A stretch of DNA of 64,000 nt from Apostichopus japonicus. Taxonomy: Eukaryota > Echinodermata > Holothuroidea > Aspidochirotida > Stichopodidae. The position numbers and the translations under genes were made by a program. The notes below the pieces were generated by a model, which was given only the letters and a program-made list of their open reading frames with translations, was not told where the DNA came from and searched no databases. Shown here in pieces: positions 293 through 39,811 of the stretch. The stretch spans positions 26,084,376-26,148,375 of the forward strand of contig NC_092567.1 of assembly GCF_037975245.1 (NCBI RefSeq). Direction: 5' to 3'. Numbering within the stretch: the first letter of the stretch is position 1; each line of letters opens with the position of its first letter.

Positions 293-3200
293 CTCTTTGA
301 TAAATAGAGCTTCTAATTCAAAAGAATCTAGTGAACCATCACCGTTTGTGTCGTGGAGCATAAAGAATGTCTTAGGGTTAAAGGTATCTTTCTCTAAATG
401 GTCGGTCTTCTCCCAAACATCTTCAAGTTGAGCTTTGCTTCCCTGGGAAAAATAACATTGAAGAAGAATAATAGCTTCCCTGGGAATTAAACATATGGAG
501 TCGATCGCAAAACTGCTTTGCAGTGTGGGCAAATTGCTATACAAGTTCAAAGATGCATTATAACAGTTTTTGTACTCAGAATCATAGTAATGTATAAGGA
601 CAAAGTTCTGATCTTTCAACACTGCTACAAAATTAAACACTACATTTTCCCTGTATTTTTTTCTTTTCTAATGTCGCTTTGTGCGTAAGTGGGGCTTTCT
701 ATAATTCACATATGAAAACAACTAGGCCAAATGTCAGAATAATGAAACATACTGTTTCATCCAGGGGAACCCTTAAAAACATCACATATTATAAAGCACA
801 TAAAGAGGAATAATAATAATCTGTTAACTTTAAACTGTTTTAAACAAGTATGACAAATTTCATGTCAGCTTCTCAAAGTCTGAATTTTCTAAAAATGTTT
901 TTTTGTAAACTGCTACAATTCATGCTTTCTAGCTGGGTCTCAACGCATCTTTGCAAGAATACTTGCCGATTGAAAAGGTTCTATAAATTATCACTTGACA
1001 GCAAATCCTTTTTCCTACAAGCTATCGACCTTAAAGGGTGTGAAGACTTGCCCAAAAAGAAACGTCTAATGCCTGTAATCTGACCTAGTTTCGAATGAGG
1101 TGTAACAGAAGTGTAAGACACCACCATCGATCCCAGAAAATACACACACAGCTTGCTACCATCAATAATTAGACACTAGTGTACAATCAGTACATACAGC
1201 TACGGTCAATACCAACAGCACAGTGTATAAACCATACAGCGATGGACATCTCAGGTGCAGCTAAAGATAACAAGGTATCACGTTTCATTACTGTCTGCAT
1301 TTTGTAGCGACACGAACAAAACATTACTTGCAAGCAACGGAAAGTTAACGTTTTCAGATAACCGCACGCGGTTTGGGGCGAGTCTTCAATGCCTTTAAAG
1401 ATTCATTCCTTCAAACTCACTGGATGTTTCATCTCTTTGTGGTTGTTCTTCGCTTTCTTCGCTTCCTCCCAATTTTTCACCGCTTCTGCTCGAGCCTTTT
1501 CGTCCAGCTTGTTCATCTGTTGGCGACGCCTAAGTTCTTTCTCCATCTCATATTTTTTGAAATCTGTTTTTCTTCTTTTGTCTGCTTCTTCTAAGTCAGA
1601 GGTTGCCTAAAGAAGTTGTTGCAAAGGATGTGTTTTAATGGGTTTGGTTTTCTATTTTATGATTTTTTTAACATAATATAAGTTATTAATCAAATACAAT
1701 ATGAATTCAATCTGAATAGGAATTTTAATTTAAGAAAACTTTCAATCTCTGGTTAAAATTCTTGTCAGTAATTATGAAGATATACGTTATGGTTTGGCTC
1801 TCCATTTAGAAGAATAATGATTATCACAATGCATTTTTGAAGGCACTGAAACAAACAAATGCACTATAGCAACTTAACCTTAACAAAATTAATTTTTGTT
1901 TATCAAAATGGCACTGGTTTCATTTTCATATCACTAGAAACATTCTCTGCATTACTATTCAAATATTTCTTCACCCTTTTAGCATTTACATTTTAATAGG
2001 TGAAATTTCATATTAATATCTATATGGCCAGTGGACATCACCACAACAATATTCTTCATAATCTAATAAACGTATTCAAAACATCTACTTCCAAGTTTCA
2101 ACACTTAATTCTAAAGAAAGTATTACAGTACTACTATGGATACCTACCCAATTTGCCCCATGTTAAGTACATTTTGTTGTATGTGAGAACCTCATTCAAA
2201 TTCTGTTGACATTTTTCGAACAGCTCTGTTCATTTCTAAGATACTGTATGCACATTTGAAGTTTTGATAAATCGGGGAAATTTGTTAAATATTTGCAAAC
2301 TATGACGTGGAGTGTTGCGCTCATCAAAATTTCTTATTTTAGCAATTAATAAGTTAACCCATAATTACAAGCTCACATGTGTATCATTTGAATAATATGA
2401 TGTTCCTATTTTCAAAGAAGACAAAATATTTCAAAAATTGCTGTAGGCCCAAAAACCTGTGTTCAGTGTCCTTGAAACAAAGATATAATATAACAGGAAA
2501 TAAGGCATTCACTCACTCTGCATTATCAATGTACATAATTAGCTAATGTTTATTCATAACTAAAACTAGAATTGAGAAGAGACTTGTGAAATGGTCAATC
2601 TCTGATGGATTTTGATTGGAGTTGCAGCTATTCTCATGATTTCTAATGCCTTTTAGAGTGATTAGGACAATGTTGTTAATAAGTGTCCATAGACTTTAAA
2701 TGTTGCGTTTTCCAGCATTTTTTTGAGAAAATTAAAACTTGCAATATAAAATGACAATTCTCAGCAAAATAAACATTGTTGCAAGGAGAATAAACATGTA
2801 AAGACAGAAAATCATGAGAAACACGATAAATTTGGTGAATTTGTTAAAGAAAAAAACAAAACAAGAATAACAATGCAACATACATGCAAACATTACCAAC
2901 TTACCATGCAACTTACGGTGGAATTGTGAAAATAATTAAAATTGTGAAAATAAAGGGATGACTTTGACCTGTCCCAGAAATTGGTAACAATTTGCTGTCA
3001 GTGCAGGCTACAATTTGCAATCATATTTTAATTTTGGGGCAATCAAGAAAGCCTCATCAGGGAAAGCAGCAAATCTAGCAAGTTAGAGGCTGCTAATCTA
3101 GCAAATTAGAAGTAATCATTACTGTTACCAATTCCAAATATGCCAGAGTCTTATGCTAGAGAGTTTTTACCAGGACTTTATAGGCACGGTAGAACGAGGT

Positions 3201-6200
3201 GCTAAGGTTGTGAGGAGACAGGTAAGCTAGGAGCGAAGTAAATTAGAGGTAATCATTACTGTCTCCAATTCAAAATATGCTAGAGAGTCAAATAATGGCC
3301 ACTGATACGTCATGTTCCAAATTTCCTTGCTCAGTTTTTGCTATTTTTTTATATTAACACTAAGAAGCAAACCGGCAGTTAATGCACCTTCTTGAGTTTC
3401 AGTTCATTATTTGATATGCAGCATTTTGAAGACAAGCAAAAGGTCTTTTTTTCAATGACATGAACGAATAAATATATTAATTATACCTTTGGACTACTCC
3501 CAGCATGGTTAATATACAAAATGCAGTCAAATAATATAAAATGAAAATGGATGCATGTTGTATAAAGAAAAAAGTATCATAAACATAAATAAGTTGAAAC
3601 ATGTTTAAAATGCCTGCTTTTTCTTATTTTGTTCTTCTTTTTTTTAGGGGGAGGGGGGAGGGGTTCTTCTTTTTTTTAGGGGGAGGGGGAGGGGGAGGGG
3701 GGCACAGGGTGCCTGCTACTTAAATCTATGAGCTCTGTCAAAAATCCTTTATTTTTTTCTCTTATTCCTTTTCTTTTCAAGCTGCTTATTATGTGTGTAA
3801 AGTATCAGCCTTTTACATGAAAAAGACCATAATATGGAACCCCCCTTCCCTCTCCCCTCCTCACCATCTCCACTATATTACCGTACATGGTACAAGCAAG
3901 GAAGTTTAAGAAATACTTGCTTCTTCTCTTACGGATGGACAGACAAACTAACAAGCTCCACTGACAAAGGTATCTTTCAGCAAAACTAGAGAATATTTCT
4001 GTTCACATTGAGGACACTTGGAAGCTGCACCAAGGTAAAGGATGAGCAACGTATTTAATTTATACCTTCTCAAATAGCTTTTGAAAATCATCTGGTCTGA
4101 AAGAGGAGAGGTCTTCTGGATCAACGTGGGCAATAAGATTTGAAAGGAAGGCTTCTTCAATGTGATCTGAAAATGGTTAGTAAACAATGATTGCAACAGA
4201 ATGGAAAGAGGGAATCAAATTAATTTAACCAGCAAAACAAACACCCTCAGTCACCATGGTAGCCAAAAAAAAATTAAATAAATTCTGTAGAAAAAAAAAA
4301 GGGAACCGCAACCAATTCCAAAGCAGCAAGATAATTTGCAGATTAGAGCAGGATTTTGCCTCCCAGTGCATGCTGGATTATCAGTTCTAGTTTACACAAA
4401 GATGTTGACAATGTGGCTTTTAGTTAGTCCATTACTTGTGTATTAGCTACCCTTCAGTAGTGCACAGGACACACTGTGCACAACCAGAGAAGGTAATTAA
4501 TTCATCAAACAAAAAACCAAATTAGGTTTATTTGGGCCATTACTCAGTACTGCATTATCAAGAACTAATTTTTTTAATTTCTTTTTTTTTTTTGAGGGGA
4601 GGGGGGGGGGGAAGGTGTTTGCAGGCAAACTTAGAACAAAGGCAAAAGATAACAATGCGATACAAAAGAATAAATGCAGGACCATGAAGGGGCAGTGTAA
4701 ATAAGAACCAAAAGGGGTTAGGCATGCAAGTACACTGTGTAACTAGCTGAGAAGATGCAAACAGACAACTGAAACATAAAATTCTGTTCCATCGTACATG
4801 ACCAACCTTATGTAGAAGTTTTTCAAAGTCCTTAGGTCCAAAGGCATTAGTGTTGGCTGGATCAATATGCCCTATCAAATTATCCACAAATTTACTGTCT
4901 AATGTTCTAGCACCTGAGGAGAAATATTACGATATCATAGAAACTTTTTAATTTAGGTTCGGAAATGGTCTTGGCATTATATAGGCAAATGGGTATTAAT
5001 CTCTTAAAACCTTCAGTCATAAAACTGACTTAAAACAGCTATCACTGATGTAGAACAGCAGGTTTCACAGAATTAGAAGTTATCACTGATCATTAGACTG
5101 TTCCTTCAGCCATATAAATGAGTTCTCTGTTAATGAAAGTTTACATATATCACCAAATAAAAATGTTTCTTAAGTTTGAACCAATTGCTGGTTTAAAATA
5201 TATATATTTGCTTAATTCCACACAGTTAGAGGGAATGATTTATCCTGAATTCCATAGCAAAATGTTATGCTATCTCAATTCGCTACCGGTAATTGGCTAA
5301 AAAATTGTAAACAGCCCAAGTTTTTCTCCACTTTCATGATAGATTAATAAATAAATCTTTAACATATATGTAAAAAGAGAACGAATCTATAATAGTACAT
5401 TACACAAGATAAAAAATATGGTATCTACAATTTCAATTTTCAAATTCTTCAATTTCAATTTTCATATATCAAATTCTTCAATTTCAACTTGATAATGCAA
5501 AGGAGATTTGAAAGAACACTGCACTGAAGCTGGATTATGGCTGATTTTTTTGAAAGGTTGATGTATCTACAAACCCACACCCACACTATAACATTCAGAA
5601 CAAACTGAATATTCAATATGCAGAGGAGTAGATGTTTATTCATTAACTTTAACTTACATACTAAATGAGTATGTGGTGGCATAGAAACACTTGGCAAGTG
5701 GTTTTATTGTCTTTTAGGCTTGGATTTATTCTCCTCTAAATTATAAAACCCCATAATAGAGTCCTAACCTTGTGGGTCCAAGGTAAACTGATACCTCCCC
5801 CACCCCCACCTCCCCTCCAAACCCCACCCATCCATTAGTGCTCAGTGCTTTGACAAACATTTATTTGGACATCTCTGTGTACAAGTCATTCCACTTAGTG
5901 TACTGAGCAATTAATAGCAAAATGATAGTTTTTGTTTGATCCATCTAAACTTACCACCGGTATCCATTCTCTTTCGGGCAATATTTCTTAGCCTCTGTAT
6001 TTCTAATCTCTTCAATTCATCAAGTTCTGTTCGTATATTATGATCCAACCAGTTTATTTCTTCTCCCATCTTGCCAGCCTGTTTGTGGGGGAAAAATAGT
6101 AGATAAATGAACAAATGTATGGTTGCAAACATTTATGATGCTATAGTTGCATACTGACAAACTTTGTTATTTTTTATTTTTCCAACTTGGGATGCATTAA

Positions 6201-9200
6201 CATAAGAATACACTACACTGGTATAAACTGTTAACTTCACATCCCCTTAGATAAAGTTAGATACATATATCTTATTCAAGGTCAAAACAAAAATACCAAA
6301 ATCATAAAGTGAAAAAAAAAAAAAAGGTTGTCAGCTTGACCATTTGCAATATACAAATTTGCATGCAAATTTCACAAGGATGGTTAAATTTATTATTCTT
6401 CTTTCATTTGTCAATAACAAATTTTCCTCCAGAGGACCAATTGTTTGCAGGAAGTACCTTTAAGTCATCCATGGTCATTCCTTCAAGTTTCTCCCTCATG
6501 CTTGGATCCGTCTCTAGCACCTGAATAACTTGTTCCAAGTACTTCTCGTATTCTAGACCAGTTTGCTGAAAGAGACAAGCACACACGTTCAGTAATAATT
6601 ATCTCGCAAACCAAGAAAAAGTTTACAAAATTTCAACAAACAATTTTACAACAATCACAGACACCATAATGTAACAAAATTATGGCTTTCTTTAGACGTA
6701 GCCCATACTTTTGCTTTGATATTACCAAATGATGTTATTTATTGCTTTATACAGTACAGCACTTTTGATTAATCCAAAGTAGACAATTCATTGTGAAACT
6801 GTGAACGGCTGAATGCAATAAGGGCGTGTGTACTTCTGCAGTCTATGCTACATTAATATGAATATATGTCTAGCAAACTTTATATCCATTTTGCAAAGTT
6901 GAATTTTCTTGCTATGCAATATCAGACACATTCTTTCATTTAAAACTATGAAAGATGGCCTTAGTGTTTGTGTTTTCCATTCCTAGCTTTATGTACACTG
7001 AAATTATATTGATGCAAAATAATGATTTTTACATCCAACAAGTAAACTATAACCTAGGCAACACCTGGAGTAATGATCAACATGCACAGCTCATTTATTG
7101 TATACTATCACTAATATATACACATATTTAAACAATATGAATAATTAACTTATTTGTTTTGTAAGAAGTACTTGTTTGAATAAATTCGCAGCAGTAGGCA
7201 CATAACAACATGCACAGCTCATTTAGTGTATATACTGTACAATCACTTATATACACATATTTAAACGATATGAATAATAAACTTGTTTTGTAACAAGTTA
7301 ATTGTTTGAATGAATTCACAGCAGTAGGCACATAACGATGCATTACTGTGGTCTGAGTTATGATGTGGCACTGCGTTCGTAAACTAACACATACATTTAT
7401 ATACCACATTATTACTGCAGTGTGGTTATCTTGTGTTAGTGTCAGGCTATTAGCTACTGTAGGTGTTGGCTTGATCAGGTTCAAACTAGCAATAAATTAT
7501 ATCAAACACCAGGCAACTTTTCTATGCTGTTGTCTTCCATAAAAACGCTTCTATTCATCATTCCCTGTGCTATTGAGAATAATTTTCTCCACTTTCTAAT
7601 ATGACATATTATTTAACTATGGATCCATTGAGCATTTCACGCTGTTGTCATCTATGACAACCTTCTACTCTTCATTTCCTATGCTACGAGCATTATTCTC
7701 CATTATTTACTAATACAAAATTTCTTACGACTTCCTTCATTTTTGATGCTGTTGTCATATATACATGGAACATTCCTACTTTTCATTTCATGTACCAATG
7801 ATTATTATTTCCCATAGCTTAATATGATATATTATTTGACTATTCTATCCATTGAGCATTTGATGCTGTTGTTATGTATATATAAAACGCTTGTATTCTT
7901 CATATCCTGTAAAAAATGTATTCCTTGACTAGATGCTATCCATCTAGCATTTACTGCCATAGTCATTCATGAAAACCTATAAATCATTTCCTCTACTTAA
8001 GTACTGCACATTGTGTTTCATTATTTAATATATAATTTTGTTTGAATATTCAAAAGGTCTGTGTCACATCAGGTCATCCATTATTACTGTATGATTCAGA
8101 TATGTTTGTTTTAACAAAGACAGAGAAGCTTGAAAAAGATTACACCTGGCAACAAAGTGAACAGCAATTAAACTTGACAGAATTCACCAAAGAGCAGATT
8201 ATTAATTCATAGAAAAGATATTTTTCTGACTCAAGTTTTGGAATCTCAGTTTCAGCGATTGGTCCCAGAATGAAGAAGTTTAGGAGAAAGATGAAAGAGA
8301 ATGGATATGTCAGAGAGGCTAAATTTTCAATAAACTTTTCAAGAAAAAAGTCAAAAGAAAAGAGATAATGAATTGCATTGTACCTGCTTTATAAATAAAG
8401 AAACAAAACAGATTGTAAGATTTCTAAGCAAAGCAGAAATGAAAAGAAAGAATCGGAATAGTTGTAATGATTACTGGCAAAGAAAGGTGGATAGGAGAGT
8501 CCAGGTGTAGAATTCTGGTGTTAAAAAACGTTCAGTAAATTATGGCAACACTCCTAGGGTTTCGGGGATATTAGGCTACACAAATAAATCAAAAGTTGAT
8601 GAAAACAGACATCTGAAAGGATGAACTGGAAATAGTATCACAATGAAATGATTTACAAATTTTCCTGTCCAGTTAGACCACAAAGTTACAAACAGACTTT
8701 AGTAATTTACAACATGTTTAACTGATGAATATCTGGAGGCAGAGACAGTTTATTCCTTATAAAGTGCAATAGATGAGAAAATGTGAACTGTGTCAATGAA
8801 AAAGTTGTCATAGATAGCACAGGAAAAAAAAATCCAGAAGAAAATGGTAGGGGAATGTAGATAACGGTATCACTACCAAGTCAGTCGGTGAAGTCTCCTG
8901 CTTGGTAATATTGCTGCTGAAAAGGGTGTTACACAAGGCATACAGTCATATTGCTCTCAATACTGTATGAGAAGAGGGGGGAAATGTTCTTTCAGAAGAG
9001 AAATAAGGTTTTTATTTATGGAGGAATGTTTTAGGGAATGTAAACAATGGTATCCAGAACAAGTCAGTTAGTAGAGTCTCCTGCTTGGTAATGTTGCTGC
9101 TGAAACAATATTTACAAGGTTGATAAATCAACATTGTTTATATTATGAAGCTGATTCTTGCCTTGAAAACTGGTTTCTTAATAGAAACAATTAAATTTGA

Positions 9201-10927
9201 TGCACTGCGTTATCTTGCCTTGAAAGATGTCAATCAGTCCAGTCCACTTTGTGCTGACCGATCAAAGGTCATATCAAACAATCCTTCATGCACATTCACC
9301 ACCTGTCATGTTTGAAGCTAATGATCTCATTCCATTCTTAATGCAATATAGTCTACTGTACTGTAAGGGACCTTCTCAGTATATATACATTATGGGTACA
9401 ATCAATTCAATCTATGATTTTCTATTGATTTTGAACTGATTTACATCTTTGCATATAACCTTTGCCCTCAGTTGAGAGTAGTATCCCATGAATAATATAC
9501 AGTTCACTTTCTTCTTAAATGCAGTAAGTTGAGCTGCTTCAAAACTTTGGTCTTATTTATCTTGACCTAACCCCAAAACATGTGAGATTGTGATGTGTTA
9601 TTCAAGGGTGATGTAAAAACCTTGGTAGGAATTGACATAACCCATGGATATGTGCATCACCAAGCTGAATTAAGAAGTCAAGAAGAAGTCGATGTATGTT
9701 ACAGCTCAGAGGGGTAACATATTCTCCACTACCAGTGCAAGTCTTTCCCAGTTTGCAGAAAAGGCAAATGTTTATTAAAGAAAGGAGAATGTATAAATTT
9801 ATACCAAAAATTGTAAGAATGTCAGCAATGATATTACCTGCATCATTTGTTAAACTTACAGACAAGTCCTTTAGATTTTGCTAAAATTTGAAAAATTAAA
9901 ATATATTAATATTCGAGTAGAATGACATGGTAAGGTAAGGGATTAAACAAAAGGAACACTTTCTAGGATTAATGCTCTGAAATAAAGATCCAATCAAGCT
10001 AATAAAGATACCAGTTTTTAATTTTTCCATATCAGTCAGTATGTATTTAAATGCTAAAACTGTAATGTCTTGAAGGGGTTCTCAACAGGCAACTCGCTGG
10101 CCCAATCTGGGATGCAAAGACTTTAGACCATCCCACAGAAAGTATCAGCCCACAATGTTGCACTATTCGGGCATGCCAGCCCTTAGGCTGGAACACATAT
10201 CAACCTACCCTCCACAAATTTACTATAGGGCCGGCTATAGCTATGGTGAGACTTTGCTTCTCTCCTCTTATCACTTCACCAAAACCAATGTTTCTACTTC
10301 AGCTTTGATACTACTTCATTTGTATTCCCAGAGGTTTATGGTGAAGTACTTCATCAGAGGTCAACTCCAAATTTATTACTCTCTTTGGTGAATGTTTGCA
10401 AACTGTGCATGCAGTACTATCTGGTTATGCGATATTATTGTAGTTATCTAAAACATTGGGTTTGTGGCTACTGGTCATATTTTCCTCAAGTCTTGATAAT
10501 TAAGCTTGGTTTTAGAGGGTTGTATATCTTGTTAAAGTATTACCTGTGATGCCAAATGTTATATCTAGTCTTGTATTCTTCTCTGGTACATCTGGCAGCT
10601 GTTGTGAACGGTTGTTTTAAAAGCAATTGCTAATTTTTTCTGTGGTATAGTATTGCTGAGTACTTGTAATGTACAATTGAAAAGGCTTTAAGGATTACAT
10701 TATAATGAACTTAAGATTAATTTTCAATTTTAATGATATTTTCATAATTGTTCGATAAAAGTATTAAATTAAAGGTTAAGTGTTCTTACAGGTCCATCCA
10801 TCAGAGAGTCAGGGGGTAAGGCTTCCACATCTGTCTCTTCCTCCTCACTTTGTTTGGGGTTGAGAGGAGCAAAACTGGCTGCATGGATCCAAACCACAAG
10901 TATTAATAACAGCTCTGTGAACCTCAT
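293..10927 (-). CDS. NUCB: Nucleobindin (NUCB1/NUCB2 family), 5' part of gene, truncated by window edge
   Basis: Coding exons in transcript order: 10790-10927, 6458-6565, 5955-6078, then either 4807-4913 or 4066-4166, then 1421-1606 and 293-442; the gene continues past base 1. The start ATG at 10927 opens a hydrophobic signal peptide ([20 protein letters not shown]), followed by an acidic stretch. Exon 2 ([20 protein letters not shown]...) and exon 3 (...[20 protein letters not shown]) match the nesfatin-1/DNA-binding region of nucleobindins. Exon 1421-1606 is a highly charged helix ([12 protein letters not shown]). Exon 293-442 has the family block [19 protein letters not shown], an EF hand with loop [12 protein letters not shown]. 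The family consists of Golgi/ER-lumen and secreted calcium-binding proteins that bind G-alpha subunits and DNA. The second EF hand, G-alpha motif and leucine zipper should lie left of base 1. The HP/GSKAQ junction is about four residues shorter than in human NUCB1, so a micro-exon may be missing. Identity is very secure. Confidence 0.93.
443..1420 (-). other. Nucleobindin intron
   Basis: Intron between the charged-helix exon and the EF-hand exon. A TTAA-flanked MITE fills 1031-1398, ending only 22 bp from the splice donor at 1420. Nothing else was recognised. Confidence 0.8.
1031..1398 (+). mobile_element. TTAA-flanked MITE (piggyBac-like), copy 1
   Basis: 360 bp between TTAA at 1031-1034 and TTAA at 1395-1398. 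The left end reads AGGGTGTGAAGACTTGCCC and the right end, reversed, AGGCATTGAAGACTCGCC, so the element has imperfect terminal inverted repeats of about 17 bp. Nearly identical copies lie at 15383-15750 (inverted) and 40701-41065. There is no transposase, so it is non-autonomous. TTAA duplication fits piggyBac or Kolobok superfamilies. Confidence 0.85.
1607..4065 (-). other. Nucleobindin intron with small direct repeats
   Basis: AT-rich intron. A block of about 45 bp (AAATTAGAAGTAATCATTAC...) near 3103 recurs near 3240 with a few changes. A 31-bp pyrimidine-plus-G-run block is duplicated at about 3637-3705. No coding exon was found. Confidence 0.6.
4066..4166 (-). CDS. NUCB: Nucleobindin alternative exon 4b (mutually exclusive)
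   Basis: Acceptor TTTTCAG precedes 4166 and donor AAG|GTATAA follows 4066. The exon is 101 nt, entered in phase 1 and left in phase 0. It encodes a split aspartate plus 33 residues, with core [20 protein letters not shown] and end DFQKLFEK, a paralogue of exon 4a. Only its phase-1 reading matches the family. If it is placed after exon 4a it is read in a foreign frame, and the next exon then stops at ACT TAG. Confidence 0.85.
4807..4913 (-). CDS. NUCB: Nucleobindin alternative exon 4a (mutually exclusive)
   Basis: Acceptor CTCAG precedes 4913 and donor AAG|GTTGGT follows 4807. The exon is 107 nt, entered in phase 1 and left in phase 0. It encodes a glycine split across the junction plus 35 residues, with core [20 protein letters not shown] and end DFEKLLHK. 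It aligns without gaps to the neighbouring exon 4b (14 of 33 identical, including FxxNLIxHxDP and FxPxDFxKLxxK). It corresponds to the vertebrate segment around [20 protein letters not shown]. The donor (GTTGGT) is weaker than that of exon 4b. Confidence 0.85.
4914..5954 (-). other. Nucleobindin intron
   Basis: AT-rich intron upstream of the alternative exon pair. It holds a short direct repeat of about 30 bp at 5425-5490 (TTCAATTTTCAAATTCTTC type). No exon or transposon was recognised. Confidence 0.6.
6566..10789 (-). other. Large first coding intron of nucleobindin
   Basis: A 4.2-kb intron with three repeat blocks. About 129 bp is duplicated at 7079-7207 and 7208-7336 (CATGCACAGCTCATTTA start). 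A diverged tandem repeat of roughly 107-122 bp, about four units, spans 7515-7990 (CTGTTGTCATCTATGAC landmark). A block of about 70 bp near 8855 recurs near 9030 (TCTCCTGCTTGGTAATATTG). No coding exon was found in the rest. Confidence 0.6.
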
Positions 10928-13880: not shown

Positions 13881-14996
13881 TAAGTGCTTGACACATTCCA
13901 ATGCCCAGGAGGGGAAGGGAGGGGTGTTAGCTGTCCCACCGTCATTCATCCATCCAGTCATTCAGAGAGTTCTCTCAGCTCACGGGGGTATAGTTTACTC
14001 CGTGTTTCAGCTCCGTTAAAATACTTTCCTTGTTGGCGTGGCTATAGGATTAAAAATATTGTTGTCCCCGGCCCTAAATTATACAAGAACACCGAAATTA
14101 TCTTCCTTGTCTAACTTAGCATGGTATGATGAAAATATCATGTTTTGTTTCGCTGAAAATGGACATGTCTAATATTGACCCTGCTCTATGTCTGTGAAAT
14201 TTGAAATCTCAGAAAAGTACATGAAAGACTCAGCTTTTATCTGGCGTCGTAGTACACTTTACCAAGAGAGGCCAACACGTATACCGGGTTCTCCTATACT
14301 GTATAACCGATTAACAATAACAGTAACCAAAATTACGTCGATGTATTTGGTTGTTAATGTTTTCTAGTCTTCAAGCTGAAACATTCTCAAATTAGCTCTT
14401 GTCGCCGACGATCCATTTATTCATACACACAACACACAGCCGCTATATTATTTTGTTTCACATGAAAAGGTTGGTAGTAGGTTGTCTATAGGCCTATATC
14501 ATATACACCAGTTCCGCTACTACTAGTACTACTGTGTAAAGCAGTCGGCTGTGTAGTTACAACACTGACTACGTACTGTGCAGTGCCCTGTTTGCGGAAG
14601 TACGACCCGTTCTTTGAACGTTTTCCAATCTCTTTTCCATAAAGTTATAGTAAGTACGCTAGTAGTAAGTAGGCTAGCATTAATTAATGTTGTGTCCATT
14701 CACCTTCACTCTTTCTGTTGTCTGCCATATGCATGGCAAAGACTGGAGAAATTACAAACAGAAAAGGTGTGCAAGTAGGATATCATGCCTGTTTTGTTTG
14801 CTTTACGTTTATTTATAGTATGTTAATTCCACTAGTATGCATAGAATAGAATCCTCTATTATCATCAGGCAAACTAAAGTTTCCTCAGAAGTATCCCTTT
14901 TAATCTTATAGTTCTTATGTCATAAATCTTACAGATTCTTATAATATTTCTTATCATGTTTCAATGCTTATAGATTCTGGCACCATTCCAGCCATA

Positions 14997-17900
14997 ATGG
15001 AAATGTTTAACAAGTTCAAGAGTACTGTTGGGGGCCTCATTGGCAATCCTGTTACCAGGGAATTTGAGGTGGGCCCTCATATAGCAAGTGCAGGCCCAGG
15101 GCATCTCTGGAGGATATATGAAGGAACTAAAAAAACATCCAAGCAGAAAGTTTCACTGTTTTATTTGGAAAAGAAATATTTGGACAGATTTGCAAGGAAG
15201 GATCGAGATAAGATCTTGGAAACACTGAAGAAAGGACCAACTAAGCTGACACGACTTCGTCATCCCAATTTATTGACTGTCGAACATCCTCTTGAAGAGT
15301 CAAGGTGAGAAATAGGGAATTATGATAATAGACTGGACAGGGAATTTCACTAAGAGACTGACTATGTAATTAGACATGGAAATTAAAGGCATTGAAGACT
15401 CGCCCCAAACCGTGTGTGGCCAATCTGAAAAAGTTAACTTTCCGTTGCTTGCGAGTGATGTTTTGTTCGTGTCGCTACAAAATGCAGACAGTAATGAAAC
15501 GTGATACCTTGTAATCTTTAGCTGGACCTGAGATGTCCATCGCTGTATCGTTTTATACACTGTGCTGTGGGTATTGACTGCAGCTGTATGTACTGACTGT
15601 ACACTAGTGTCTAATTACCGAGGGTAGCAAGCTGCGTGTGTATTTTCTGGGATTGATGGTGGTGTCTAACACTTCTGTTACACCTCATTCGAAACTAGGT
15701 CAGATTACCGGCATTAGACGTTTCTTTTTGCGAGTCTTCACACCCTTTAAGAGACTGTCTAGCTATCGAGACTGAAAAAAATGATATTCATGGGCATACA
15801 CAGAAGGTGTTTGGTTAACTGAAGCCCCCTATAAAGCAACTCTTCCATCACACAGAAACTTCTTGCCAAGCTGTTCCTATCCTCCTTAAGACCATTCCTC
15901 AGCTGTCTATAATTATATAAGCATGTTGAAATATCAAAAAGTGCAGAGCCTGTTTAATGAATGAGTTCAGAAACTGTTTGTATAAATAATTATTCTCTAA
16001 ATGCTGTAGTACTTAGGAAATTCATAGAAATTTTGTAATTTTGTTTCATTACAGGGATAGCATAGCATTTGCAACCGAACCAGTCTTTGCGAGTCTTTCA
16101 AACTTACTGGGAGATCGGGAAAATATGCCAAGCCCTCTACCACCAGAATTGACAGAACATGAACTGTTTGAGGTTGAGATCAAGTATGGACTGCTTCAGG
16201 TAAGGATATGATCCTACTACAGGTTAATAACAGCCTTTGATTTGTTTTTATGAATGGCTGCAGTTAACGTTGAGCCTTTGGTTTGTATGGACTGCTGAAG
16301 CTAAGGTACCGTTTGTATATGATCCTACTACAGGTACTGTAAATAAGAGCATTTGGTTTGTTTTTATGAATGGCTGCAGTTAACGTAAAGCCTTTGGTTT
16401 GTATGGACTGCTGAAGTTAAGGTACTGCTTGGATATGATCCTACTACAGGTACTGTAAATAAGAGCCTTTGGTTTGTTTTTATGAGTGGCTGCAGTTAAT
16501 GTAGAACCTTTGGTTTGTATGGACTGCTGGAGGTAGATCAGTGCCCTTGACTTATCAATGTTTACAGCAAAGAAAAAGTTTATGTAACTAGTTCAAACTT
16601 ATTATTTTTTTTTCATTTAGACTTCTTCAGCTACAGTAAAGTAGTGTTTTGATTTGCTTAATGATAATACATCATTTGTCTATCTTCTGCTACAGCCACA
16701 CTTAGTCTTTGTCACTATTTGTTGTTTTCTATTTCATACATTTTCTCTATCACAATACAGGTTACAGAAGCCCTAAAGTTTCTCCACAACAGTGTCAAAA
16801 TGATCCATGGTAACATTTGCCCTGAAAACATAATCCTGAATACCAATGGAGCGTGGAAGTTGACCGGGTTTGACTTCTTTATCCAGTCTTCCAGCCCACC
16901 AGAGCAACCGGTAAACATTTGTTGTGTGGTAACAATGCCATGAGTTAACACAGGCTGCACAGTATTATTTGTTGTGTGGTAACAATGCCATGAGTTAACA
17001 CAGGCTGCACGGTATTATGATCCTGTGATTATTGAGTCCTATGTATGTCATAGTGCACACATAATGCACATGTATTATATTAACATACCTCAACTTTATC
17101 AGCTTCCATTTATGGTTTTCTTCTGTCTCAGATAAAAGCACAGCTCATTTGTTTAAAAGAAAGATCTTCTTTCAATTAAAGTTTGGAAAAGTCCTTCTAG
17201 CAGTCATGACATGAATTTGAATTATAAGGAATTCCTTTGTTAGGAACAATTTCATCCCCTTTTTAATGATTAGAGAATTTATATTGTGTATGCTACAATA
17301 TCATCTCTTTGTCATTTTGGAGTGACACAAATTTATGAAGTAGTCATATATGTTTTTTTTTTTTATGAGGATACATGCATAGATAGACAAAATATGACCC
17401 TCTTCATGCACACTAGTCTGCTGTATCAAACTATATTAAATATTTGACAACATTTCTGCAGTTCAATTTTACTTCTTTACAACAACAAAAAACTCAACCA
17501 AATAATTATTTACAAAGAAATGCTTTGATGTTGTGTGTTTCATAACAGTGGCATAGTTTGTCTTCTTTTTGTATTATTTAAAACTAAAATAATTTCAAAC
17601 ACTCAGTTAATGATGTATGTAAGTTATTTGTAGTGTGCAGGTGATTAAACCCACTGTGCATCTTACTGTCAAGTGGAATGTTACTTCTTGACTTATTTGG
17701 ACCATTTGATATAAAACTATTTTCAAATTATATTTGAAAGATATTCTTGGTCATTTATTTTTATTCCTCAGGCAACATTCTCGGCTGGAGAATGGGAAGA
17801 TGGACTCTCACCAGTTGCTCAACCAAATTTAAACTTCCTGGCTCCGGAATACATTCTGACACTGAGTTGTGACACTGCCAGTGATCTGTTCTCTCTGGGC

Positions 17901-20900
17901 ATGCTCATGTATTCCACTGTAAACAAAGGCAAACCTCTCTATCAAAACAATGAAAATATCAGAACTTTCAAGCAGAACTGTTCTCAGGTTGGTAGAAGTG
18001 ATCTTTAAGGGTGGCAGAATCATTCTCAGGGACGGTAGAAGTAAACAAAAAAAAATTTTTTAATCAAGGAAATGTTGTATGTGGTAGGCTATGTTCAATA
18101 TTTATCTTAAAAGAAATAACGGTGGTAATCAATATAGTGTTTACATTTGTGAGATCATAGAAGACTTTAGGTCAGCATTTCTTGTCCTGGGATTGGCTTA
18201 AGTCCCTGAAGGTGCAACATAGGACTTCTTCAGTGGGTTCAATGCAATAGGCATATACAAAAAATCTCCATAAAGAATAAATTCATCCACAGCTGGTAAG
18301 TTTATTCAACAGCTTGGGGGATGAGAGTAGTGGAAAAGGTCAAGGAATGCTGTTTTAGGCAAATCTGTTGATTGTGAAAACAGAAAAAAAAGAATAAATT
18401 CCCTGTAATTGTAAACATTTGAGGCTTATCGGTCAAAACACATCATCGTGATTGTGTGATTGTTTACTATACAATAGATTGTAGAGTGAAGAATTGGTTA
18501 GTTCCATTTTGGAATGCATGATGGGGCCTTTATTTCTATTTCCCATGTTTTCTCTGTTTTTACAGTTGAAAGCACTGAATTTTACATCTCTGGGGAGTTT
18601 ACCTGAAGGCCTGAAAGAATATGTCAAAATGCTCCTCAGTGCAACACCGACGGTGAGACCAGATGCAGACCAGCTGTCCAAGGTATGGTGATGTTTGAAA
18701 GGACAAAATAATCAAAAATATGAAGGACCTGTTACAGTACACAAGATGTTAAGTCATGAACCATGTCCGTCCTAAATACAATTGTACACAAGATGTTAAG
18801 TCATGAAACCATGTCGGTCCTACTTACAATAGTACACAAAATGTTAAGTTATGACCATGTCGGTCCTACTTACAATTGTACACAAAATGTTAAGTTATGA
18901 CCATGTCGGTCCTACTTACAATTGTACACAAGATGTTAAGTCATGAACCATGTCGGTCCTACTTGCAATTGTACACAAGATGTTAAGTCATGAACCATGT
19001 CGGTCCTACTTACAATTGTGCACAAGATGTTAAGTCATGAACCATGTCAGTCCTACTTACAATTGTGCACAAGATGTTAAGTCATGAACCATGTTGGTCC
19101 TACTTACAATTGTACACAAGATGTTAAGTCATGAACCATGTCGGTCCTACTTACAATTGTGCACAAGATGTTAAGTCATGAACCATGTCAGTCCTACTTA
19201 CAATTGTACACAAGATGTTAAGTCATGAACCATGTCGTTCCTACTTACAATTGTACACAAGATGTTAAGTCATGAACCATGTCAGTCCTACTTACAATTG
19301 TGCACAAGATGTTAAGTCATGAACCATGTTGGTCCTACTTACAATTGTGCACAAGATGTTAAGTCATGAACCATGTCAGTCCTACTTACAATTGTACACA
19401 AGATATTAAGTCATGAACCATGTCGGTCCTACTTACAATTGTACACAAGATGTTAAGTCATGAACCATGTCGGTCCTACTTACAATTGTACAATAGATGT
19501 TAAGTCATGAACCATGTCAGTCCTACTTACAATTGTACACAAGATGTTAAGTCATGAGTCATGTCGTTCCTACTTACAATTGTACACAAGATGTTAAGTC
19601 ATGAGTCATGTCGTTCCTACTTACAATTGTACACAAGATGATAACTCATGAGTCATGTCGTTCCTACTTACAATTGCACACAAGATGATAAGTCATGCTT
19701 TGGGAGGCAAGGGGGGGGGGAGGATGGAGTAGGTGAATAACATTGATTGGTGTACACCAAACAGATTCCTATATTTTGTTTTAACTTGTTTACAGATTCC
19801 TTACTTTGATGATGTTGGTGCCATGACCCTTCAGTACTTAGATACGTTATTCCAGCAGGAAAATATTCAGAAATCCAAGTTCTTCAAAGGCCTGCCCAAA
19901 ATTTTATCCAAACTTCCCAAGGTAAGTTATTAAACCAGATCACCGTTCTGTGATTTGACCTGGTTTTTATATTCACATGTGTTGTTATGATGGGAATCTC
20001 AACTTCAAATTTACCTAAAATGTTCTGATAAACATGTTTCCTCTGTCACTGTTCTTTATCAAAAAGTCTTGAATTTTACTTGTTTAGAGAGTGGTTCTAA
20101 AAAGAATGTTACCCTCATGTACATTAAACTGTACAAATATGTTTCCTGGGGTAGCATTTCTCAACAACGAAATGTTTTGTATGTATTTTTCCTTGTTTTT
20201 AGAGAGTGATTCTTCAAAGGGTGTTACCGTGTCTCTGCAAAGAATTTTACAACCCAGATATGATCCCGTTTGTCCTGCCGAACGTTCTCCTGATAACAGA
20301 ACAGTGCACCAACGATGAATATGTGAGGCTAGTTTTTCCAGAGCTCATTCCAGTTTTCAAACTTCAGGAGCCGATTCAGATCTCATTAATATTCATGCAG
20401 AGGATGGACTTGTTGCTGACCAAAACACCAAAGGAAGATGTGAAGCACCATGTACTCCCGATGGTGTACCGAGCTCTAGAAGCACCATCACCACAAATAC
20501 AGGTAGGGGATGTTGGTATCATATAACCTGTGGACAGGATTGGGTGGGCAGGGGTGGGGGAGGGGCAAAAGGAAGGGGTTGGACAGTGCCAAGTCTTCCA
20601 GTAAAAGCTCCATGTTAATAAGGTAGTTTAAGGAATTCCAATGGGGAGGGGGGGGGGGCATGGATGAGTAAGGAGGAGGGAGTTAGTGTTGGTATTCTTT
20701 TTAAGGCATTGTATTAAATGACCTGAAGAAATTGTCATGCTTTTGATAACTTTATGTAACCTTGGGTTTTGGGATACCTGTTTACAACTCTGTCAGCCAC
20801 ATGTCTTGTGTTTGCAACATGTTGTTTCTAGCATTACAAGTATCCAAATAGAAATGCATTGTTAGGGTTTTGTATTAATGTCACATAATTTAAAATTACC

Positions 20901-23900
20901 TTGAGAAATTGAGCAATCTTTTTATTACTGTAGTCAACATTTTCAGTATAGCCCAATTAGCATAAAGAGATCCAGACTAATGCTATTATTGTAACCTATT
21001 GCTGATTGTTTTCATAATAGTATTCAGAAATCTTTGATAAGGTTGCTAGGAAATCATGCATTTTTTATTAAATTTAGTGAGTCTCATCGGTCAGAAGTGT
21101 TAAGCTATGTCATACAATTATGTTATTTCTAAATGTTGTTGTAGTTTTTATTGAATTACTTCATGACTGAGTCGGAAACCATTCTTACTTTCAGGAGTTA
21201 TGTTTGACTATTCTACCGACATTCGCTGCGATGATTGAACTGTCCTCCATGAAGCACGCCATCATTCCAAGAATCAAAAAACTCTGCCTGGATACTGACA
21301 GACTTTCTGTGAGTCAAGATTTTATTTCTTGTCATTTAAGCTTGTATCTAAAAAATTATAAGTGATGGTTTCTCTTCTTGTGTAAAAGTAAGTTGGCCTG
21401 ACATTTCGATCCTAGCAGGATCTTCTTTAAAGGCTAAATGACAAGTAAGAGTAACAGAAGGGACAAAAACACACACACCGAATACAGACAGGTTAATGAG
21501 CATGGTGAACACAAAGAGATAGATGTAAGGGGATTAGTAGACAAGGGATGGAGAGAAGAAAGAAAGAAACCAACAGGGGAAGAGGAGCGGTAGGAGAGGT
21601 CTCTGTGTGTGTTTTGTTCAAGCCTTCATATTGACATAGACTGTTCTCTATTTCAATGAAAGAATGTATTTAAAGGCTACACTGTATGGTTGCTTCAGAC
21701 TTGCAACCAAATTAGGAAAGAAATGTTAATGAATTGAAACAGAAACTAATTAAGAACTGGATAGCCCATCAGCAAGGTGTGTAATTCTGTAATTCTCTGT
21801 GTGTAATTTTACAGAAACAAAGAGTTATGTTAAAGCAGGGAGGTCTGTTTTTACCTCCATGGTTAAAAGTAACAGTTTCTCCTTTCATGTTTGATAGATG
21901 TCAATATGCTATGGCCCCTAAGAATATTTAACATTAATGAGTATAGTTCTTGTACATGCATGATATGCTCTATGGGTCCTTTCTAGGATAAGTTAAATCC
22001 AATGGCTATAGGGTCTGTAAAATATCAAACATGTAAATATGAGGGCTTGAGGTTCTGTATGTATATGAGATAGTATTTTTTATTTGTTTATTAACATTGA
22101 GATGACATCATCCTTATGTCCACTGAGTAGTATAACAGTATTACAGTATATAGAATAAGGTAAAATGCAAACAAATCCTGAGAAAGGATATGTCCAGCTG
22201 GTTAGGTTGATTAACTGGACACCTACAGTTTTAGGGATGCAGCTTGTGTCTAATGGACATGGCATGATCAATATGTATGTATTTATGTATTTTAGATCCT
22301 CCTGCCAGCAGGAACTCGCGAAGAAGCCTCATTGGCTTTTCAAAGCCGCAAGCTGACCGAAGTCAGTCTCTTACATTCATATTTAACGTCCAGAATTATG
22401 AATTGTCAATTTTCAACAACTCTGTAACTGGGGGACATACAATAATCTTGGATTGACTCGAACTTGAATCAATACTCAATACTGGACTCAATATGAAAGC
22501 TGTCTTAAATCAGAAGAAAAGGTCGACACTGCAACTGCTTGTTTTATTTTAATAGTCTGTTTGCTATTTTCATCCCTTTATCATTGCTTTGCAATAAATT
22601 CATTTTCAGAAATTGTTTCAGTCTTCAGAAACCTATTCCATAATTTTTAGTTTACTCAATTTCTAATGCCATCCAGAATTTGAATAATATGTTTTACTAT
22701 ACACAAACAAACTGAATTTTAACTTAGATATTACCTTTCCCTTTTGTTTCTAACAGACTCGGGTGGGTTGTTTAGTCTGCATAGGTAAGCTTCTTGAACA
22801 TATGGATAAATGGTTTGTCCTGGACGAAGTACTGCCTATGGTTATGCAGATACCCTCAAAGGAACCAGCAGTACTTATGGGAATTCTTGGTAAGTCATGT
22901 GTTTACTCTGGAAAATTTGTTGGGGGGGGGGGGCGGGGTTATTGAAGGATTTATTTAAGCACAAAATCAGTTTTGTATTCAACTGATGCTGTGATAGGTC
23001 CAGGTTGTATTTCTTTACCACTTATAAATATTGAGAAATGACCCTCAAAGCATCTGAGGCTCGTTAATTAAAGTGGCTGTACTACTTAGTCTAGCTCACA
23101 GACTATTAGATCAGCTCCTCATAAGCAACTCAAAACTCAATAGGAAACATAACAATTTTCATGACATCATATAACACGTTTTCAAAGCATAACACATTGG
23201 TCTAGTAGAAACAGTGGCAGTGAGTGCTATGCTGTCTGTGTGGAGATCAAAGGACATGTGCTGGTTGTTGTTATAAAAAAATTGATGAACACTAATATTT
23301 TGGCCTGGAATAAGGATTTCAAAAATATTTGTTCTCATCCTTTCATATTTTATTATTCATATTTACATTCTTTTTTATTATTGTTTTTATCATCTTTTTG
23401 TTATTGTTGACAGGTATCATTAAGATGACAATATCCCACAAAAAGCTTGGAATCACAAAAGATATAGCTGCGACTAAGGTTTTGCCATTCCTTTTCCCTC
23501 TGTGCATCGACAACAGCCTGAATCTTAACCAGGTAGGTGTGAAGACTGTTTTATCATAACCATTTTAATGTGTGTACAGGGAATAATGTATCTAGTATCA
23601 AACTGCTATACAACTCCAAAGATGTATAGCAATGTCTTTACACAGTAACCAAGTCATTTTATAAAGACAAAACTCTTCAAAGCTGCTACACAAAGATGGA
23701 ACACTAAATTATTCACTGGCAGAGATCAGAGCAGAAGGTGGAAGAGGGTGGATAAAGGTGAGGAGGGGGTGGGGGAGGGAAGAGTTTGGAGGAGGATGGG
23801 GGATGACTGCTGAGGAGGATGGGGGATGACTGCTGAGGAGGATGGGGGATGATGGCTGAGGAGGATGGGGGAAAACAAAGAGGGTGGATGAAGGTGAGGA

Positions 23901-26181
23901 GGGGGTGGGGGAGGGAAGAATTTGGAGGAGGATGGGGGATGACTGCTGATGAGGGTGGGAGAAGGTGGAGGAGGTTGGACAGATGTGGAAGAGGGAAGAT
24001 GGAGGTGGGGAGGGGAGAGAAGAGTTTGGAGGAGGATGGAGGTAGACAGTTGAGGAGGGTGGACAAGGGTGGAAGGTGGAGGAGGGAAGATGGTGGAGAA
24101 GGTTGAAGGAAGACAAAGTGGGTGGATAAAGGTTTGGGGGCAGAGGGTGGAGGAAGAGAGTGGAAGAAGATTGAGGAGGGTGGATGAAGGAAGAGCGTGG
24201 AGGAGGAGGGTATAGCAGAGGGCAAAAGAGGGTGGAGATGAGAGAAGCCATTGAATTACACAATGATAATTGCCATTAGAGAAATAGTTAACTGTCACTC
24301 CAGGTCGTAAGTTTCAGAAATATTTCTCATTTCATAGAAATGAGTTTAATTTATTATTTTTATATCTTTTTCATTCAGTTCAATGCCTACATGACTACCA
24401 TTAAGGAACTTGTGACGAAAGTTGAAACAGACCACAAAGGAAAGTTGGAACAACTCAACAGTCTTCAAGAGGAACATAAGTTAGTTTCACAGATGTTTTC
24501 TGAGTTTTTTTTACATTTCTACTCTGTTGTTTTCAATTAGTGAAATGTTTGAGAATTGAAATAGTAAGTGTAAAAGTTAGTTGGCCTGACGTAGTACAAT
24601 AAAACATATTTCAGAGAATAGAACTAAGAGCTTATGTATCATGCTTTGAGTGGGATTATATTTTTGGAGCTATTTCCGGTACCACAAAGTCCCACTAAAA
24701 GGTGCTCGGGCCTCCAGGCCCTCTTCCTGGGTCCGACCTAGATAGTTACTAGTTTGTTGGAAAAGTTTCAAGAAAGCCTCTACTCTTGATGTTCTTATAA
24801 CTTTCCTTTCCATTTCTTTGTCCTAGAACATCCCTTCAGTTTGCACAGAAACTTCAAGATGATAAAAGTGCAACCTCTGATCCATTTGTTACTTTGGAGA
24901 AAAAGCCTGCAGCTAAACCGGAGCCGTCTGGGGAGGTGAGCTGTTTTCCTTTCTACTATATTATGTACTGATGTTGAGATACCAGTAGTGTCCAATATTC
25001 GGTATTAAACCTTCCACATCCCCTTTTGAATCTGCGATAGTGTTACATCAGGTGGGCTGTTCCATGTTATTGAGAGAAGTTAATATTGGTTCCTGCCTCA
25101 GAGCAAGTCATTTCAATGAAAAGTGAAAATTGTGTTTTTTTTTGCTCAGCTGTGTGAATTTTTACCCTTCATTTAACAATAATTACTAGTATTATCACAC
25201 TGCGGTACTGGAATTTGACGCTTTCAGAACAGCTGAGAAGGTCAACAAACATATCTCACAGCTAAATCTCTTTTTGACCACACTTTGTGCTTTCATTTTT
25301 CATTTCAGGTGGAGGCAATGTTCCAAAGCTTTGGTCTGGAGAACTACATGGGATCTAGCTCTGAAAAACTAAGAGCAGCAAATGCTGGAACTGATGATCG
25401 TACTGGGACAAGTGGGTCAGGAAGGGGTCCAATAGTCCCATCCCAGCCAACTCAGCTTTCACTGACCTTGGAGGAAAAACAGAGGCTTCAAAATGAACAA
25501 GAATTTCAGCAGAGAATGAAACAGCAAAAGCCCATATCTGCAAAGACCCCGTCTGGGCCATCAGGGCCCAAGAGAAATGACCCAAAGGACCTGACCGCAT
25601 CGCTGTTGGACTCTAGCATCAACCGACAGGTCAAGTCTGTTGCCCAGCCAAATTACAATTCTTCATTGGGCCTTGGAGCTGGTGTAGGCCTTGGACCTGG
25701 TGTAGGCCTGAACAACTCCACCTTGGGCTACAACCCCTCCCACCCTGCCATTAATCAGCCAAGTGGTATGAATGTGATTGGCTCTAATCCAGGCCAAACA
25801 TCTTTACAGAGTAACAATCAACCCAAACCTAAAGTGGACATGTCTGCATTTGATTCTCTACTGGAGACACAGTCATCTCGAACAAAGCCCTCACTCAATC
25901 AAATGGGTCCTCCTCAAAGGTCAAATCAAGGTCAGATGATAATGAATCCTGGCATGCCAGTGCAGGGCATGATGGGAATGCAACAACAACAGCATAGACA
26001 ATTTCAACCAATGGCAGGGGGTATGCCATCCACAGGACAATATTCAATGTATGGAAATACAAACCAAGGCAGAGGCAGTATGCAGACCGGTCAGATGTCC
26101 GGTGGGTTTGACCCACTGGCACCGTCACCCACAAAGCAGAACAGTAACCATGGTGATAACCTACTTGACTTCTTAAATTAA
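14997..26181 (+). CDS. SCYL2: SCYL2 (SCY1-like pseudokinase 2, CVAK104)
   Basis: Thirteen coding exons: 14997-15304, 16055-16199, 16761-16910, 17772-17987, 18566-18682, 19796-19921, 20203-20502, 21195-21308, 22757-22889, 23414-23532, 24379-24479, 24827-24935, 25309-26181. All phases agree, giving about 936 residues (human about 929). The start MEMFNKFKST is chosen because it follows a likely leader acceptor and matches human MESMLNKLKS. The kinase-like N-half has HGN where active kinases have HRD (MIHGNICPENIIL) and GFDF where they have DFG. The middle is a HEAT-repeat solenoid (GLPKILSKLPKRVILQRVLP ...). The C-tail is Gln/Asn/Gly/Met-rich and ends GDNLLDFLN, with a clathrin-box-like LLDFL. 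In the family, SCYL2 binds clathrin and AP-2 and acts at endosomes and the trans-Golgi network. Many introns carry tandem repeats. Confidence 0.96.
15305..16054 (+). other. SCYL2 intron 1
   Basis: Donor AG|GTGAGA at 15305 and acceptor TTACAG ending at 16054. MITE copy 2 occupies half of it; nothing else was seen. Confidence 0.8.
15383..15750 (-). mobile_element. TTAA-flanked MITE (piggyBac-like), copy 2
   Basis: Inverted copy in SCYL2 intron 1. TTAA lies at 15383-15386 and 15747-15750 with 360 bp between, the same length as copy 1. The ends are AGGCATTGAAGACTCGCC and, reversed, AGGGTGTGAAGACTCGC. Confidence 0.85.
16200..16545 (+). repeat. Tandem repeat of about 116 bp, three units
   Basis: Begins at the splice donor of SCYL2 exon 2. 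Units share GATATGATCCTACTACAGG and GGTTTGTATGGACTGCTG; landmarks recur near 16204, 16318 and 16434. The first unit includes the splice-donor neighbourhood. Confidence 0.75.
16911..17771 (+). other. SCYL2 intron 3 with a duplicated splice-donor flank
   Basis: The first about 100 bp is a direct duplication (about 51 bp period) of TTGTTGTGTGGTAACAATGC followed by CATGAGTTAACACAGGCTGC. The rest is unremarkable AT-rich intron. Confidence 0.7.
18738..19695 (+). repeat. 47-bp satellite array, about 20 units, in SCYL2 intron
   Basis: Unit includes ACACAAGATGTTAAGTCATG and AACCATGTCGGTCCTACTTA, then CAATTGT. Most units are within a few bases of the consensus; later units drift to GAGTCATGTCGTTCC. 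The array lies in the intron between coding exons 5 and 6. Confidence 0.92.
20088..20202 (+). pseudogene. Possible decayed duplicate of the start of SCYL2 exon 7
   Basis: TTGTTTAG followed by AGAGTGGTTCTAAAAAGAAT and GTTACC resembles the true exon start 115 bp downstream (AGAGTGATTCTTCAAAGGGT, GTTACC): 22 of the first 28 bases agree, and the phase-0 reading starts RVVLKRMLP against RVILQRVLP. Similarity fades after that. Confidence 0.35.
20503..21194 (+). other. SCYL2 intron 7
   Basis: G-rich at its left end (about 20540-20690, several runs of four or more G), otherwise plain AT-rich intron with no feature recognised. Confidence 0.6.
21309..22756 (+). other. SCYL2 intron 8 with an interspersed-repeat fragment
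   Basis: Around 21385-21500 the sequence AAGTTGGCCTGACATTTCGA followed by TCCTAGCAGGATCTTC looks like a dispersed-repeat end. A fragment of the same start (GTTAGTTGGCCTGACG) recurs near 24577. No exon was recognised. Confidence 0.4.
23715..24240 (+). repeat. Purine-rich G-run minisatellite in SCYL2 intron 10
   Basis: Irregular units built from GGAGGATGGGGGATGACTGC and GGGTGGATGAAGGTGAGGAG. The minus strand is open in several frames as Pro/Ser/His-rich text purely because of composition. Several clustered G runs could fold as quadruplexes. Confidence 0.85.
24480..25308 (+). other. SCYL2 introns 11 and 12 (interrupted by exon 24827-24935)
   Basis: Two short introns. The first holds a short palindrome-rich stretch (GGGCCTCCAGGCCC near 24708). 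No other feature was recognised. Confidence 0.6.
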
Positions 26182-32666: not shown

Positions 32667-39069
<6,403 letters not shown>

Positions 39070-39759
39070 GTTCTTCTTGACACTGGATCGATTCGCCTTC
39101 AAATATGATAAATAACAAATAGCTTGTGAAACATGTAACAAACGCAAATTTGTGAAGCAATAGGCTATAAGTATAAGCGTGTCCCCTGATACAGATGTGA
39201 TAATCTGCGGGTATTCTAGTGTTATTTTATGGGGATGCCGAAATTATAAGACTGTAAAAATGATGTAACTTGACCCTTGCTGCCCTATTCCGACAGATGC
39301 ACAAATAGAAACGCCAAAATAGGAATGCTAATTAATTGAACTGTTGGGAAGATGGTGGCGAGAGGGGAGATTTAATCCCTCTTAATGGAAGCGTGGCCGT
39401 TAAGCAGTTGAGTGTATTCCTCTTTATCATCGGGTTCCGGATTTTCGATCTCGACCATATATGATTTAAACTTGCTGATTTGCAATGTTGTCGAGTGCAC
39501 CGGGATTTTTTAGGCCTACTATATTGGTTAATTGCGAATTGGGAACTAGTGCTTTCTAGATCTGTTTTGCAGTGGTTTCGGCGGAACAACAGGATTTGAG
39601 GTTTCTGCGTTTGTTCCTTTTTTCTTTTTCTTTTTCTTCACCAAATTAAACCAAGCCTGTGCCGCAGTGATGAATGAGATAAGTTCACCTCCTTGAGTGA
39701 TTAATTGAATTATATTTGCAAGTTTTGTTAACGTTTCCTTAAACTATGAACCGTAAAAC

Positions 39760-39811
39760 AATAATAAACATTAAGCTAATTATTTAAATAATTAGCTTAA
39801 TGTTTATTATT
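39760..39811. repeat. Perfect 52-bp palindrome
   Basis: Left arm AATAATAAACATTAAGCTAA plus TTATTT is followed at once by its exact reverse complement, 26 bp per arm with no spacer. It lies about 0.7 kb upstream of the tetraspanin B start codon, just before a G-rich patch (39829-39853). Confidence 0.95.

Follow-up and report, generated by a model that had tools for sequence, protein, structure and literature searches.

Does the nucleobindin gene of the sea cucumber Apostichopus japonicus carry a pair of homologous internal exons of which the reading frame allows exactly one to be used, and, if so, which part of the protein is exchanged and how could the choice between the two be made? The question was raised by a prediction made from the DNA letters of a 64,000-nt stretch of contig NC_092567.1 (positions 26,084,376 to 26,148,375; hereafter the window). 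Rebuilding the gene exon by exon from the DNA placed its first seven exons in the window, on the minus strand, and the remaining ones (Fa, Fb, G, H and I) past window position 1, in the adjoining region L002, with Fa and Fb about 0.65–1.5 kb beyond that position (Table 1). In addition to the pair predicted originally (C1 and C2, termed here cluster C), the reconstruction includes a second pair of homologous exons (Fa and Fb, cluster F). A transcript that takes one exon from each cluster would encode a protein of 387 or 389 aa, with a single stop at its end (the C1/Fa and C2/Fb forms were read from the DNA).

By its predicted product, the locus is an echinoderm gene for nucleobindin, a hormone precursor that binds calcium. 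Both forms match the NUCB1_N profile (PF25434; 112.3 bits for the C1/Fa form and 109.7 bits for the C2/Fb form, cut-off 27, exon S left out) and score above the cut-off of EF-hand_1, while the pair model EF-hand_7 gives 26.6 and 28.0 in the two forms, just under its cut-off of 30. Human nucleobindin-1 (1SNL) is matched with an E-value of 2e-28 by residues 180–277 of the C1/Fa form, again lacking exon S, and the string LVTLEEFL in exon G is identical to 1SNL in all 8 of 8 residues. As in vertebrate NUCB1 and NUCB2 (calnuc, NEFA/nesfatin), the product combines a NUCB1_N domain, a basic region and two EF-hands with LVTLEEF. LVTLEEFL may correspond to the G-alpha-i-binding (GBA) motif; the LDELKR processing site of exon B has a vertebrate counterpart, and we take the stretch from LDELKR to KRR to correspond to nesfatin-2. 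The cleavage sites of nucleobindin have been described as conserved in echinoderms (PMC5627052). The nesfatin-1 region of the sea cucumber gene contains two phase-0 introns, as does the same region in a comparison of NUCB gene structures across animals, in the available part of which duplicated exons are not mentioned (PMC9004410). Protein searches of the 671.6-Mb genome, in which two portions of the product served as queries (exon S in neither; 9 and 6 candidates, all scored), revealed no second gene copy or retrocopy: all matches at E <= 1 fall within the nucleobindin gene (6 of 6 and 4 of 4). Unlike vertebrates, which have two NUCB genes (PMC5627052), the sea cucumber thus appears to have one gene with two duplicated exon pairs.

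Table 1. Exons of the reconstructed nucleobindin gene and the intron of cluster C. Coordinates refer to the window or, where so marked, to the adjoining region L002; phases are those at entry and exit of the exon.
Feature	Position	Strand	Remarks
Exon S	10790..10927	minus	Start codon, putative signal peptide, acidic N-terminus; 46 aa; ends in phase 0; open frame with hydrophobic stretch and splice donor, chosen by resemblance
Exon A	6458..6565	minus	First part of nesfatin-1-like region; phase 0-0
Exon B	5955..6078	minus	Closes the nesfatin-1-like region (LDELKR) and opens the nesfatin-2-like region; enters in phase 0, leaves in phase 1
Exon C1	4807..4913	minus	107 nt; cluster C, alternative 1; enters in phase 1, leaves in phase 0; net charge 0
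C1-C2 intron	4167..4806	minus	640 nt; GT-AG
Exon C2	4066..4166	minus	101 nt; cluster C, alternative 2; enters in phase 1, leaves in phase 0; net charge -6
Exon D	1421..1606	minus	Basic region, net charge +5; holds the stops reached with both or neither C exon
Exon E	293..442	minus	First EF-hand
Exon Fa	L002:9349-9263	minus	87 nt; phase 0-0; first alternative of cluster F
Exon Fb	L002:8604-8518	minus	87 nt; phase 0-0; second alternative of cluster F
Exon G	L002:6900-6811	minus	Carries the EF2 loop; constitutive
Exon H	L002:4708-4544	minus	
Exon I (last)	L002:1706-1692	minus	Five codons including the stop

The arrangement is very probably that of a single nucleobindin gene in which internal exons have been duplicated in tandem at two places, and in which each of the two resulting clusters is spliced in a mutually exclusive manner. 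We infer that every mature mRNA would contain one C and one F exon, which allows for up to four proteins. For cluster C, the coordinates, phases, 640-nt spacing and stop codons of the original prediction were all recovered when re-read from the DNA, and so was its central claim, namely that exactly one C exon is needed for a full protein. The lengths of C1 and C2 are both 2 mod 3, and AG/GT is found at all four exon edges. The frames of B-C1-D and B-C2-D are open, while B-C1-C2-D runs into a stop in exon D at ...CTG ACT TAG, and B-D, with the C exons skipped, stops at GGC AAC CTC TGA. Thus, given these predicted splice sites, the frame leaves single inclusion as the only productive outcome. 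A possible alternative donor of C1 (GTCATG), 4 nt downstream, would bring C1 and C2 jointly in frame, but it looks poor.

Nonsense-mediated decay follows the rule that a stop lies more than 50–55 nt before an exon junction. The premature stops reached with both or neither C exon are 170 or 175 nt ahead of the D/E junction, so double inclusion as well as double skipping should trigger the decay of the transcript. The same positions would also be expected if the C pair served mainly as an expression switch, with double inclusion or skipping as a regulated decay outcome and the amino-acid difference as a secondary matter. Nevertheless, a poison exon needs no second coding exon that is constrained and family-like, and the F pair, which is in frame in all combinations, cannot work in this way, hence we regard such a switch as highly improbable. 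Under mutually exclusive splicing, the frame disqualifies the wrong products after they have been spliced; it does not explain the choice made by the spliceosome.

How could this choice be made? Steric block between neighbouring splice sites finds no support in the distances within the clusters (introns of 640 nt between C1 and C2 and 658 nt between Fa and Fb), and for cluster C it is disfavoured because a 640-nt intron is too long for it. A second known device is the incompatibility of U2 and U12 introns, the U12-type donor being GTATCCTT. Inspection of the listed donors by eye revealed none of the type GTATCCTT, the donor of C2 sharing its first four letters. Pairing between introns was assessed by a crude comparison, limited to the first 700 of the 2459 nt of the intron that follows C2, and all four intron-intron duplexes compared had weaker energies than 24 shuffles had on average. 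Since neither steric block nor U12 type nor intron pairing gained support, regulation by splicing factors may be inferred, and the choice between C1 and C2 would probably be set by regulatory proteins that act on moderate or weak splice sites. Scoring with a donor matrix put C2 lowest of 11 (0.44); the donors of S, A and C1 scored 1.55, 1.61 and 1.83. Weak donors are not special to cluster C, because the constitutive exons S and A score below C1, and the strength of the splice sites alone proves nothing. A TACTAAC sequence that resembles a branch point was also observed unusually near the C2 acceptor (window 4166), at a distance of about 11 nt.

The two members of each pair are homologous. The ungapped local alignment of C1 and C2 exhibits 14 identical residues (BLOSUM62 score 87), exactly the number predicted, albeit over a length of 32 rather than the predicted 33; for Fa and Fb, 17 of 29 residues are identical (score 89). 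The chance expectation of such scores is estimated at 6e-6 for cluster C and 3e-6 for cluster F, according to Karlin-Altschul statistics for six frames of 25 kb. The probability that either pair reflects chance similarity or an assembly duplicate is practically nil: the low expectations argue against the former, while the identity of the encoded proteins (14/32 and 17/29) betrays copies too diverged for a mis-assembled haplotype, and both explanations were therefore rejected. The published A. japonicus assembly was built from HiFi reads (PMC10344927). A scan of 25 kb of the locus on both strands, which covered ten exons (A, B, C1, C2, D, E, Fa, Fb, G and H, i.e. all but exon S and the five-codon last exon), revealed no third copy of C or F and no duplicates of A, B, D, E, G or H: apart from C1/C2 and Fa/Fb, no non-self score exceeded 41. 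In the protein search of the 671.6-Mb genome, C2 was the weakest of the 6 matches at E <= 1 (genome-wide E 0.227).

Comparison with the family profile indicates that both C exons encode a genuine piece of nucleobindin. Against NUCB1_N, exon B reaches 40.4 bits by itself; extension by C1 and seven residues of exon D raises the score to 60.9 bits, and extension by C2 and the same residues raises it to 59.1 bits. The control without a C exon gives 41.0 bits, and six shuffled C exons give 39.9, 39.5, 39.7, 42.6, 40.8 and 43.2 bits. C1 and C2 thus each add about 18–20 bits of family signal and are genuine nucleobindin segments. The FxxNLIxHxDP motif, predicted to characterize the swapped segment, is present in both, and the segment is followed by a basic region, encoded by exon D, which the original prediction took for a coiled coil.

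The pattern of substitutions suggests that neither copy has drifted freely. C1 and C2 differ at 23 of 32 third codon positions versus 7 of 32 second positions, and the Nei-Gojobori method yielded pS 0.89 and pN 0.37 for cluster C, pS 0.86 and pN 0.30 for cluster F, and 0.88 and 0.34 for the pooled data. Both copies look constrained, because synonymous sites are saturated and amino-acid-changing sites are not, while free drift would have saturated both; the argument comes from one genome and does not involve a tree-based test. It bears directly on the idea that one C exon, more likely C2, is merely left over from an old duplication and is spliced rarely or never, so that a single protein is made. 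C2 does have the lowest donor score of the 11 and fits the family profile slightly less well than C1 (59.1 versus 60.9 bits), but a relic would hardly be expected to retain unsaturated amino-acid sites beside saturated synonymous ones, an open frame, an intact GT-AG and a family fit far above that of the shuffled exons. Cluster F exhibits the same pattern, and since the arrangement thus occurs twice in one gene, the reading as a relic becomes less likely for either pair; we consider it improbable. The mutually exclusive reading of C1 and C2, as originally proposed, agrees with all of the features collected here: tandem homologous internal exons of equal phases and similar length, GT-AG boundaries, fit to the family, signs of constraint, and stops with both or neither exon.

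Fa and Fb, which likewise have GT-AG splice sites, are separated by 658 nt; exon E with EF-hand 1 precedes them, and exon G with EF-hand 2 follows. The F pair looks like an either-or choice too, but here the frame does not enforce exclusion: the lengths are 0 mod 3, and the transcripts with both exons in or both out also retain open frames. It is therefore conceivable that Fa and Fb are included jointly to give a longer linker between the EF-hands, a possibility consistent with their 87 nt and phase 0-0 and one that concerns cluster F alone, without competing with the reading of cluster C, which would then be the only exclusive one. Human NUCB1, however, has one such segment, and the comparison of the EF-hand region with 1SNL gave scores of 284 with Fa and 291 with Fb, which dropped to 258 with both (and to 185 with neither); joint inclusion is accordingly viewed as unlikely. 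The donor of Fa is located within a 23-nt tandem repeat (2.4 copies, L002:9229-9283), and the repeat thereby provides GAG|GTAGGG once more, 23 nt further downstream; splicing at this second donor would put the transcript out of frame and run into a stop.

Both the F and the C pair look old. Identity between Fa and Fb amounts to 59%, compared to 45% (Fa) and 52% (Fb) with the human sequence, and the synonymous sites are saturated; of the constitutive exons that flank the pair, E shares 64% and G 52% of its residues with human in the parts compared. Because the duplication appears to be old, the pairs may well occur in other echinoderms, and the odds of finding them in sea urchin, starfish and hemichordate genomes would be good. 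With 163 aa of the protein as query, relatives were found neither among prokaryote contigs (0 of 88 pattern matches) nor in IMG/VR (0 of 9), and a near-match query of 204 bases found none among plasmids, but these are non-animal collections, and the results have no bearing on conservation.

What would the swaps change? Cluster C would supply the last quarter of NUCB1_N (profile positions about 105–140 of 140) and more than half of the nesfatin-2-like stretch: C1 makes up 58% and C2 57% of the sequence from LDELKR to KRR, and no dibasic site is present in either exon. Cluster F would supply the linker and, since it precedes the EF2 loop, the entering helix of EF-hand 2. If the pairs are used, the swapped parts would mark tunable regions of the protein, namely the end of the N-terminal domain with the nesfatin-2 region, and the stretch that leads into EF-hand 2, where calcium and G protein bind. 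The likely effect of the swaps would be a change in charge. The net charge (K+R minus D+E) of Fa is 0 and that of Fb is -4, so in each cluster the first alternative is neutral and the second acidic (compare C1 and C2 in Table 1). This agreement between the clusters is striking, although it may be due to chance, as there are just two of them. If both pairs are used, studies of echinoderm nucleobindin that assume one protein per gene concern a mixture.

The GBA motif of mammalian nucleobindin lies in EF2 (PMC10943482, PMC8198689); it overlaps the EF-hands and is buried upon calcium binding (PMC10943482). By analogy, the stretch encoded by Fa or Fb could be a plausible point for tuning. It is tempting to speculate, although we hold it to be rather unlikely, that the two clusters act in concert as a splice switch between a neutral form (C1 and Fa) and an acidic form (C2 and Fb), ten charges apart, in which the swap in cluster C could give two different peptides and the swap in cluster F would retune the EF2 helix, which in mammals governs the calcium-gated access to the G-alpha-i site. 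Exon duplication would then do part of the job done in vertebrates by the duplication into NUCB1 and NUCB2, and the nesfatin-2 peptide, the function of which was called an open question by a 2021 review (PMC8198689), would gain a reason to exist.

How does this arrangement compare with known systems? In 377 (60%) of the human clusters of mutually exclusive exons, the exon lengths do not permit joint use (Hatje et al. 2017, PMC5740500). The sea cucumber exons resemble the clusters described there in being homologous neighbouring internal exons with the same frame and similar length, and, in the case of cluster C, in a length that is not divisible by three; unlike the human clusters, for which exclusivity was tested with RNA reads (PMC5740500), they are assigned as exclusive from the genomic sequence. 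Cluster F can be compared with ACTN1 and ACTN4, where a tandem exon pair also alters the EF-hand region of a calcium-binding protein (PMC9741552). In the actinins, however, only one of the alternatives keeps calcium binding (PMC9741552), whereas in the sea cucumber the EF2 loop resides in the constitutive exon G, and it is the preceding stretch that would be swapped. Among echinoderm neuropeptide precursors, duplicated peptide-coding exons that are alternatively spliced have been described in the calcitonin gene of brittle stars and of A. japonicus itself (PMC5627052). The long form of that precursor holds both of these exons (PMC5627052), in contrast to the nucleobindin gene, where C1 and C2 jointly break the frame.

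The original prediction knew of no description of an exclusive pair in nucleobindin, and no report of exclusive exons in nucleobindin was found in searches of the open literature. Nucleobindin (or nucb) is named nowhere in the main text of the survey of human clusters (0 occurrences in PMC5740500) and is likewise absent from the main text of PMC9741552. Mouse Nucb2 is alternatively spliced (PMC10932545, PMC9031102), but the available parts of these reports do not term the splicing mutually exclusive, and PMC9031102 gives one skipped-exon event. The mechanism of exclusive exons is in itself ordinary; what appears to be undescribed is the presence of such exons in nucleobindin.

Several features were observed in the surroundings of the gene. 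Two minisatellites are present in L002, one with a 33-nt unit in 50 copies within the intron between exons G and H (L002:5027-6694), and the other beyond the downstream end of the nucleobindin gene, with 22.6 copies of a 49-nt unit (L002:1-1109). Open frames on the minus strand at window 37713-46001 resemble, by eye, a membrane protein of the tetraspanin type, but the 4 pieces scanned (4 of 4) gave no Pfam match at E <= 0.001. Open frames on the plus strand at window 14904-26181 perhaps belong to one gene, oriented divergently from nucleobindin; a 50-aa piece of them shows a weak match to Pkinase (22.9 bits, below the cut-off of 31.7), another scanned piece matched nothing, and we presume a resemblance to SCYL2. 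Since some 4 kb separate its first frame from the start codon of nucleobindin, this putative gene and nucleobindin may share an upstream region.
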